Assembly (NCBI GenBank): GCA_028279555.1
Contig: JANQNO010000002.1
Coordinates: 310,001 to 374,000, forward strand
Reading direction: 5' to 3'
DNA length: 64,000 nt
DNA from: Sphingorhabdus sp.
GTDB taxonomy: Bacteria > Pseudomonadota > Alphaproteobacteria > Sphingomonadales > Sphingomonadaceae
Numbering within the stretch: the first letter of the stretch is position 1; the number at the start of each line of letters is the position of its first letter. Made by a program: the position numbers and the translations under genes. Positions 16,449 to 18,842 of this stretch are shown here, piece by piece. Under the pieces are notes generated by a model. The model had not been told where the DNA came from. It saw nothing but the letters and a program-made list of their open reading frames with translations, and did no database searches.

Positions 16449-16826
16449 TCATTTGACTTCGCCGAAACTTTCCCGGTTGAACAGCCTCTCAACTTCGAGC
16501 ACGAGATCGCGCAAGTGGAATGGCTTGGAGAGAATTTTGGCATTTGGAACCGATTCTCCGGCTTTCAGGACAACTCCGGAAAAACCGGTAATGAACATAA
16601 CCTCGGTCCGCGGGGAAACCTTGCTGCAATGGCGGGCCAGTTCGATCCCGTCCATTTCGGGCATAACGATATCGGTCAGGAGCAAGTCGAATTCTTCATT
16701 TTCAAGCAGCGGGACGGCCTCGGTTCCGCACTCGACGGAAACGACGTCATATCCGGATTTTTCAAGCGCGCGCGCCAGATATTCGCGCATCGCCAATTCG
16801 TCTTCAGCCAGCAGAATTCGAGGCAT
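16449..16826 (-). CDS. cpdR: Single-domain response regulator, CpdR-type
   Basis: MPRILLAEDELAMREYLARALEKSGYDV...DLLLTDIVMPEMDGIELA...SKPFHLRDLVLEVERLF; stand-alone receiver. Confidence 0.85.
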   Translation of the reverse strand: MPRILLAEDELAMREYLARALEKSGYDVVSVECGTEAVPLLENEEFDLLLTDIVMPEMDGIELARHCSKVSPRTEVMFITGFSGVVLKAGESVPNAKILSKPFHLRDLVLEVERLFNRESFGEVK

Positions 16827-16937
16827 AATTGTTCCCATCCGCGCTCATTGTGGCAAATTGCCGCCCCTGCGCAAGGGCATTAACCGGATATCTTTAATAT
16901 TTTGCTGATCCGGCAATATTCTGCCAGAAAAGCCTAG

Positions 16938-17831
16938 ATGGCGGAATCGATCAGCAAAATGCCGCAAAATTCGGTCTGCGCCTTCGGGTTCGAGGCTTTC
17001 GGCTGCGAAATGCCGAACTGGCCGGTGTTGCTGGCCGTTCCACATGCGGGCCGGGATTATCCCGCCGAGCTGACTGCCAATCTTCGCGTCGATCCTTCTG
17101 CCATTGTGAAGCTGGAAGATCGCTATGCCGACCTTTTGACGAAAGCGGCCCGGGAGACAGGGTTTTCAGCAATTATCGCAAGCAGGCCCCGTGCATGGAT
17201 GGATCTGAACCGGGCCGAGAATGATCTTGACCCGGCTATGCTGCGCGATGTGCCAGCTGAATTTACGTCGCTGAACAGCCCCAAACAGCGTGGCGGCCTC
17301 GGCCTGGTTCCGCGCCGACTGACAGGTGTTGGCGAGATTTGGAAAGCGCGATTTCCCTTTGCCGATGTTACGCGGCGGATAAGCGAGTTCCACAAGCCCT
17401 ATCATGATGCGGTAGATCGCGTGCTGAGACAGATGCGGGCCAAATTCGGTGCTGCTATTCTTCTGGATGTACACAGCATGCCGCCTGTCAAAACCGCGCA
17501 TGGCAATAGTCCAGATTTCGTTGTCGGGGACCGTTTCGGGAGCAGCGCGGCCAGTTGCCATGCGGATCTGCTGCGTGGACGGATCGAGGCCAGCGGATAT
17601 CGCTGCGCGCTCAACAGCCCCTATCCTGGAGACTATATCCTGCGCAGGCATGGCCGTCCGGAGCGCGGCATTCACGCCATTCAGCTCGAGGTGGACAGAA
17701 GGCTGTATCTCGATGAAGCGATGCGTGAACCCGGACCGGGGTTGGCGAAGATCTCGGCTCTGGTTGCGGAGTTGGCAGGGCTGCTTGGTGATGCAATCGC
17801 AGGCGGAGGCGAATTGCTCGCTGCCGAATAA
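16938..17831 (+). CDS. N-formylglutamate amidohydrolase family protein
   Basis: VPHAGRDYPAEL, RPRAWMDLNRAENDLDP, LDVHSMPP, IQLEVDRRLYLDE motifs. Confidence 0.88.
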   Translation: MAESISKMPQNSVCAFGFEAFGCEMPNWPVLLAVPHAGRDYPAELTANLRVDPSAIVKLEDRYADLLTKAARETGFSAIIASRPRAWMDLNRAENDLDPAMLRDVPAEFTSLNSPKQRGGLGLVPRRLTGVGEIWKARFPFADVTRRISEFHKPYHDAVDRVLRQMRAKFGAAILLDVHSMPPVKTAHGNSPDFVVGDRFGSSAASCHADLLRGRIEASGYRCALNSPYPGDYILRRHGRPERGIHAIQLEVDRRLYLDEAMREPGPGLAKISALVAELAGLLGDAIAGGGELLAAE

Positions 17832-17937
17832 AAAACCACCCCGAATTTCTTCGGGGTGGCCAAGGTTCAGGGAGGGGCACCGTAGAGCGGGTGCCCACAG
17901 CGGGGCAGAAGGGAGGGGAGATATCCGCCCCGCAACA
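17830..17937 (-). ncRNA. Putative structured trans-acting sRNA with C-rich (anti-SD-like) loop and Rho-independent terminator
   Basis: On the minus strand: stem GCGGGGC/GCCCCGC with loop GGATATCTCCCCTCCCTTCT (17900-17933), stem GGGCACC/GGTGCCC (17875-17896), then CCACCCCGAA/TTCGGGGTGG terminator plus T6 (17830-17859); lies in the 3' intergenic region of sapC. Confidence 0.6.
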
Positions 17938-18059: not shown

Positions 18060-18842
18060 TCAAGCCGCGGGTGCTTCTGTAACTTCGGGGACTTTGCCTT
18101 GTTGTACCTGCTGCGCAAAAATGTCCCGCATCAATTGTAGCGAGAAGAGATGGGCATGCATCAACGGCAGCATGCCATTCTGGTTCATTTTCCTCAGCTT
18201 TTCTCCTGTCAATTCGCGCAGTTTGTTCTCGTCGATCATTTTGAAGCCGCGATAGACGAAAGGCTTCTCAACGCCCGTCTGCTGAATCGAGACCTCGCCT
18301 TCCATCAGCAGGTCTTCTTTCTTCAGCTCTTCCATAAAGGCCTGTGTTTGCGCGCCAGCCTGTTCGAAGTCCTCGCAGAATTTGAGAATATTCTTGGTAT
18401 TCTCGGTCGGCTGGTCACCATCGAAAAGCGGCTCCGCATTCTTCTTGTAATTGCCCACAGCTTTCGATGTGGGATCAAAGCAAAGCGACATTTCGTCGCT
18501 ATCGGGCTGCAATCGCGCGAGCAGAAATGGATAGCGGCGCACATAAGCAGGAATGTACACTTGGGTGGTAAACTTGCCCTTGTCGTCCATGAAGATGTTG
18601 ACGCCCTCATTCAATCCCATCAGCGCCAGCGGCACCGGGTTGTCTCCAGCGGAGAAAATGATGGGAAAGTTGCGCGATGCCATCACGAACTCCTCGATCG
18701 TCAAAGGAATAGCATGCGCACCTTCCATGAATTTGGCGTTGTCGATACCGCGTGTGGACCATTTTGCGTGTTCCTTGCTGTTGAGGGGAACCAGGTCCTT
18801 GTAAAACATCGGAAGGGGATTTGCTGTGGGCGCGGTGGCCAT
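18060..18842 (-). CDS. SapC family protein
   Basis: FYKDLVPLNSKEHAKW, GDNPVPLALMGLNEGVNIFMDDKGKF...YIPAYVRRYPFLLA characteristic of SapC family. Confidence 0.92.
   Translation of the reverse strand: MATAPTANPLPMFYKDLVPLNSKEHAKWSTRGIDNAKFMEGAHAIPLTIEEFVMASRNFPIIFSAGDNPVPLALMGLNEGVNIFMDDKGKFTTQVYIPAYVRRYPFLLARLQPDSDEMSLCFDPTSKAVGNYKKNAEPLFDGDQPTENTKNILKFCEDFEQAGAQTQAFMEELKKEDLLMEGEVSIQQTGVEKPFVYRGFKMIDENKLRELTGEKLRKMNQNGMLPLMHAHLFSLQLMRDIFAQQVQQGKVPEVTEAPAA

Follow-up and report, generated by a model that had tools for sequence, protein, structure and literature searches.

The window analysed here, a stretch of 64,000 nucleotides from a Sphingorhabdus sp., contains a 228-bp gap between two convergent genes, and the question it raises is whether a small regulatory RNA is encoded there and, if so, to which family it belongs. 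The plus-strand gene for an N-formylglutamate amidohydrolase (FGase or NFGA; 16938..17831) ends at position 17831, and a sapC-family gene on the minus strand (18060..18842) ends at 18060, so the gap of about 230 bp given in the first-pass annotation was accurate. A further minus-strand gene at 16449..16838, for a probable cpdR-like response regulator, belongs to the conserved context. The first-pass annotation had described three consecutive stem-loops on the minus strand of the gap, ending in an intrinsic terminator, and its reading of that strand was reproduced exactly. We conclude that the minus strand from 17935 to 17830 is a strongly conserved small regulatory RNA gene. Fold, conservation, covariation and a covariance model, R1, mark it as a predicted sRNA of the alphaR8 (MmgR/SuhB/SisA) type, approximately 106 nt long with a 5' end placed to within a few nucleotides, and present as a single copy in its own genome. 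The sapC-family gene lies upstream on the same strand, as context and not as part of the RNA.

From its 5' end, the RNA begins with hairpin H1, GCGGGGCGGA-TATCTCCCCTCCCT-TCTGCCCCGC (17900..17933), which is defined by the minimum free energy (MFE) fold and by compensatory changes. Its C-rich apical loop carries a first anti-Shine-Dalgarno (anti-SD)-like seed, CTCCCCTCCC (17911..17920), whose C-run is unpaired in the MFE folds of 41 of 42 non-redundant orthologues. Hairpin H2, GGGCACC-CGCTCTAC-GGTGCCC (17875..17896), shows compensatory change at 6/6 pairs, and is followed by the linker CTCCCTGAACCTT (17862..17874), the second anti-SD-like seed, which occupies the position of the alphaR8 10-mer UUUCCUCCCU. 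The gene closes with an intrinsic terminator, GGCCACCCCGAA-GAAA-TTCGGGGTGGTT (17830..17861), with a 12-bp stem, a GAAA loop and T6; this rho-independent terminator at the RNA 3' end is present both in the fold and in the terminator scan, its inner pairs covary, and its U-tail overlaps the stop codon of the amidohydrolase gene. In the predicted fold both seeds are exposed (H1 loop CUCCCCUCCC, linker CUCCCUGAACC), while neither the H2 loop CGCUCUAC nor the GAAA loop carries an anti-SD motif. The two C-rich stretches earlier proposed to pair with ribosome-binding sites are thus both present, but the second had been drawn too long: the CCC of GGTGCCC is paired within H2, and the free linker starts at CTCCCTG.

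The fold is far more stable than expected by chance, with an MFE of -57.3 kcal/mol against -35.2 +/- 3.5 in dinucleotide shuffles (z -6.3; 0/200 as stable). Across 28 distinct congeneric sequences, 12 of the 26 pairs show compensatory changes (5/8 in H1, 5/6 in H2, 2/12 in the terminator). The observed number of pairs changed on both sides was reached by 0/500 shuffles, and the covariation score was 0.245, compared with 0.142 +/- 0.008 for shuffles and 0.02–0.08 for slid controls. The three stem-loops described in the first-pass annotation, and the covariation it had proposed to check in homologous intergenic regions, are therefore borne out in all stems. Across the Sphingomonadaceae, compensatory change extends to 18/26 pairs, including 8/8 in H1 and 6/6 in H2; the corresponding family-wide score of 0.493 against 0.160 comes from a covariance-model alignment, which is fitted to the model and hence biased towards it. 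That model was used because MAFFT with RNAalifold missed H1 and H2 in the order-wide set, owing to length differences. H1 and H2 together were more stable than shuffles in 42/42 non-redundant sequences (mean z -5.1), and nearly all of these folds leave the C-run of H1 and the linker single-stranded. Loop and linker letters are kept where stem letters vary: in an alignment of 30 congeners the stem letters are variable and the linker letters constant, with CTCCCTGA invariant in all 30. One further congeneric copy (L179, G005:C1:2170653-2170749) reads CTCCCTGAACCTTACCACCCCC over linker and terminator, and the letters GGCCACCC are thus not a strict requirement.

Upstream of the RNA, the promoter suggested by the first-pass annotation (TTGGAC...TAGATA) proved not to be conserved; the conserved boxes lie instead at 17970-17942, with ATTGAT (17970-17965) separated by 16 nt from CCCATTC (17948-17942) on the minus strand. 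Among 42 non-redundant loci the family consensus is CTTGAA-N16-CC(T/C)A(T/A)(T/A)TT, and in 30 congeners the spacing from TTGA to the -10 box (CCCAT) is a constant 17 nt. The consensus closely resembles that of S. meliloti RpoH1, CTTGAA-N15-16-CCTATAT, and Sphingomonadales retain rpoH1 only (PMC4843759). The groES and dnaK genes of the same genome are preceded by similar boxes, CTTGAC...CCCTATTT and CTTGTG...CCTATAT. We therefore consider the conserved boxes to be probably an RpoH (sigma-32)-type promoter, an argument from consensus and not a proof; the window's own copy, ATTGATT...CCCATTC, is a weaker match than the CTTGAAA of its relatives. Expression of an alphaR8 RNA by the housekeeping sigma factor, with no link to heat shock, is a possible reading that we find somewhat doubtful. 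For some relatives the boxes may be those of a sigma-70 promoter (TTGAAA-N17-TATTTT), and the Sphingobium boxes, TTGAAA-N17-TAT(C/T)TA, can be read in that way; moreover, the promoters listed for MmgR in S. meliloti are of the RpoD and RpoN types (PMC7143759), and expression of SisA in Caulobacter is nearly constitutive (PMC12559287). TTG is found in 42/42 loci and the -10 A in 37/42. On the other hand, the letters that distinguish RpoH promoters are kept, namely the C preceding TTGAA (36/42) and the two leading Cs of the -10 box (31/42 and 34/42), and the window's CCCATTC would be a poor -10 box for sigma-70.

As to the family of the RNA, Rfam at gathering scores returns only a tRNA in the window and no accepted family at the RNA itself. 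The first-pass annotation had likened it to suhB, ar14 and cuckoo-type RNAs and had proposed a check against suhB (RF00519) and the alpha-r families. Under a relaxed threshold, RF00519 matches the RNA with 22.0 bits (E 0.032), below the gathering score of 41, and no Rfam match to alpha-r14, alpha-r15 or cuckoo appeared up to E 10. Other matches at E<=10 (HTT-AS1, sR30, isrG) were set aside as chance, and anti-hemB, with 22.1 bits at the relaxed threshold on the terminator half, is not an accepted family here either. The suhB likeness nevertheless held at the level of the locus: RNAs at the same locus in sister families of the order pass RF00519 with 42–67 bits, and two congeneric orthologues (L027 and L019) come close to the cut-off of 41 with 39.0 and 38.9 bits. 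Based on these same-locus RNAs and near-threshold congeners, we regard the window RNA as a diverged alphaR8 RNA.

In Caulobacter, alphaR8 RNAs are described as a terminator preceded by a 10-nt single-stranded UUUCCUCCCU that follows a weak hairpin, and most species have one copy beside the N-formylglutamate amidohydrolase gene (PMC12559287). Both the single-stranded CCUCCCU core 3' of a hairpin and the location next to the amidohydrolase gene are found here. The window reads GCCCCUCCCU where the 10-mer is expected, with 7/10 letters identical; the exact 10-mer occurs in several orthologues, for example as ATTTCCTCCCTG in L036. Because the window copy stays below the Rfam cut-off and lacks the exact 10-mer, we count it as a variant and not as a plain alphaR8 member.

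The neighbourhood points the same way. Across 109 loci, the amidohydrolase gene was found at 78, convergent with the RNA in 78/78 and with a median of 23.5 nt between the 3' ends. It is common to the loci of 30 genomes except L030, where only sapC was found, and sapC and cpdR are likewise common to nearly all of them. The RF00519-positive RNAs of sister families in the order likewise face the amidohydrolase gene tail to tail, often beside cpdR. The amidohydrolase locus beside cpdR is the ancestral locus of the alphaR8 family (MmgR, SuhB, SisA), and the window RNA is orthologous to alphaR8 in position and apparently also in descent. At several Sphingobium loci (L034, L042, L045, L048 and others) sapC and the RNA are retained with no match to the amidohydrolase or cpdR in the 8-kb stretch, which suggests that the amidohydrolase gene was lost or relocated there.

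The window RNA thus shares with alphaR8 (MmgR of S. meliloti, SisA-D of C. crescentus, SuhB of Sphingopyxis granuli; RF00519) its locus, the order of hairpin, single-stranded CCUCCCU(G/A)AAC and intrinsic terminator, and the predicted anti-SD action. It differs in being larger (~106 nt against 61–77 nt), in having an additional 5' hairpin whose loop forms a second C-rich stretch and a strong H2 stem in place of a weak hairpin, and in its RpoH-type promoter and its score under the Rfam cut-off. The 61-nt SuhB of Sphingopyxis may represent either a further copy or a product of processing. In the portions of the literature available to us we found no description of the two-seed form or of the RpoH-type promoter, and a 2016 phylogenetic study of alphaR8 may already list some sphingomonad loci.

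The 5' hairpin itself is not confined to the family of the window, since at the amidohydrolase locus of sister families, too, a hairpin precedes the core; its loop, however, is not C-rich in the folded examples from three of them (f4, f7, f8), while C-rich loops are seen in f6, another sister family (L147, L149), and in the Sphingomonadaceae. From this distribution the second anti-SD-like seed looks like a clade-specific gain. Relatives do keep the C-rich loop, on which the first-pass annotation had staked its proposal, in all 42 non-redundant sphingomonad copies. The two f6 copies are RF00519-positive, with CCCCCC in the H1 loop, and the stretch fetched for them contains no match to the amidohydrolase.

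Could the RNA instead be a separately arisen sRNA, for instance of the AbcR (alpha-r15) or alpha-r14 kind, that resembles alphaR8 and lies beside the amidohydrolase gene by chance? The sub-threshold RF00519 score would fit such an origin, as would the design of AbcR1/AbcR2, which likewise have three stem-loops in about 114–120 nt and two CU-rich unpaired anti-SD motifs (PMC7143759). AbcR genes, however, lie beside lsrB, in tandem, and the window RNA is found at another locus and has no AbcR match in Rfam. NfeR1 (alpha-r14) shows a similar architecture of three hairpins with sequence-variable stems and exposed anti-SD motifs, but carries the motif in all loops and has six copies in S. meliloti (PMC7143759), whereas the H2 and terminator loops of the window RNA lack it. 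Rhodobacter CcsR1-4, the cuckoo RNAs, are transcribed from an RpoHI/RpoHII promoter, but they are four RNAs processed from the DUF1127 (ccaF1) operon (PMC10253847), compared with one independent RNA beside the amidohydrolase gene here, where the gene upstream is sapC and not one for a DUF1127 protein. A likeness at the level of the loops also exists. CcsR/cuckoo RNAs have C-rich loops.

A separate origin could further be suspected from another RF00519-type RNA, with the core CCTCTCC(T/C)AAAGACTT, that many Sphingorhabdus genomes encode elsewhere. That congeners have this separate match had led us to consider the window RNA unrelated to suhB, an idea dropped once the amidohydrolase synteny emerged. 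What makes a chance resemblance improbable in our view is that the window RNA agrees with the RF00519-positive RNAs of sister families in locus and orientation, in the order of its core elements (hairpin, CCUCCCU(A/G)AAC, terminator) and in where its promoter lies, and that congeners have intermediate scores of up to 39 bits. The second RNA was sampled in five relatives (L155-L159), at a locus lacking the amidohydrolase, where four copies score 44–49 bits and the fifth (G006) 40.7; none above threshold was detected in the window's own genome. There, the best candidate for a second alphaR8 copy (20.6 bits; L185 1500-1570, G000:C6:186033-186112) lies immediately 3' of an ORF stop codon and has the exact 10-mer, TTTCCTCCCT, with an intrinsic terminator; it was rejected as probably a chance match, being absent from that place in relatives.

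The first-pass annotation had left two origins side by side, an independent sRNA or one derived from the sapC 3'-UTR. The gene order would suit an RNA cut from the sapC mRNA, as 105/109 loci have sapC 5' of the RNA in the same orientation and, in the window, the stretch between the two yielded no terminator. Yet the fixed-spacing promoter boxes stand immediately 5' of H1, and the distance from sapC to the RNA ranges from 84 to 3118 nt across orthologues, with sapC up to 3.1 kb away in several and not found nearby in four; sister-family RNAs, too, are retained with no sapC match in the stretch fetched. The independent gene is therefore favoured, and a 3'-UTR origin seems very improbable. Equally slight are the chances of a mere terminator with decorative hairpins and no regulatory function, for although a gap between convergent genes is expected to hold a terminator and the RNA 3' end overlaps the amidohydrolase stop codon, covariation is seen in H1 and H2, the letters of loop and linker are kept while those of the stems are not, and a conserved promoter lies upstream.

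The RNA is widespread within its order. DNA matches were found in 36/61 relatives, nearly all of the strong ones in the same genus. The pattern CTCCCTGAACCTNGGCCACCC, scanned across ~85,000 species, gave 113 stretches, and all record titles that name a taxon at order level or below point to Sphingomonadales (Sphingobium, Sphingorhabdus, Erythrobacter, Qipengyuania, Novosphingobium, Sphingomonas, Croceicoccus, Stakelama and others). R1, which scores 76.5 bits in the window's own genome, matches 208/301 genomes of the order, strongly in the same family and weakly (E about 1e-6 at best) in the remaining families; RF00519 also has matches at the two weak places compared (G060, G048). Sphingobium SYK-6 is among the strains that carry the RNA. 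Beyond the order, the class sample yielded no more than 4 matches, all of them weak. Even with lax filters, R1 found no match in four genomes of the same genus (G011, G013, G023, G036).

Taken together, we estimate a probability of roughly three in four that this is a trans-acting, alphaR8-descended sRNA with two anti-SD seeds, Hfq-assisted repression at ribosome-binding sites and a dedicated RpoH-type promoter. What the comparison shows directly is the structure of the gene, its covariation and family range, the identity of the locus, a conserved promoter and an Hfq gene in the genome; that the RNA is transcribed, depends on RpoH, binds Hfq, represses its targets and works through both seeds is inferred. 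Transcription would start from the dedicated RpoH-type promoter ~7 nt upstream of the RNA, which would couple it to proteotoxic or heat stress; Hfq would bind at the U-tail, and the linker, the H1 loop or both would base-pair with the purine-rich ribosome-binding sites of a number of mRNAs, which would prevent their translation and promote their decay. Among the related RNAs, SisA represses many mRNAs via the alphaR8 10-mer motif, MmgR, its relative in S. meliloti, is Hfq-dependent (PMC7143759), and binding of Sphingopyxis SuhB to the thnR 5'-UTR depends on Hfq (PMC6563040). The window's own genome has an Hfq gene (L203; G000:C5:531643-532077), a single open frame of 176 aa with two Hfq (Sm-like) domains in tandem. 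Duplex energies with 50 putative start regions of the window, taken as longest-ORF starts, a choice that limits what the comparison can show, differed little from those inside genes (linker mean -9.8 vs -9.6, loop -7.6 vs -6.8 kcal/mol). Apart from the RNA itself, the 3' end of one small ORF was the sole match to the long complement GTTCAGGGAG in the same genome, a count not exceeding that of the reversed control pattern.

More tentatively, alphaR8, ancestrally linked to nutrition, may have been rewired in sphingomonads into an RNA of the heat-shock regulon that gained an independent second anti-SD seed from its C-rich 5' loop, thereby acting as a broad two-seed silencer of translation in protein-folding stress. 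We regard this as a possibility on the doubtful side; if it is true, each seed could have its own targets. One of the most widespread sRNA families of the Alphaproteobacteria, alphaR8, reaches across the sphingomonads in a form not recognised by Rfam, and the promoter boxes, the covarying hairpins and the amidohydrolase locus provide anchors for annotating it. With the loop C-rich in some families and not in the examples folded from others, the clade is a natural experiment on the value of the second seed, and a heat-shock-type promoter on an alphaR8 RNA would tie a family known from carbon storage and nutrient control to protein-folding stress.
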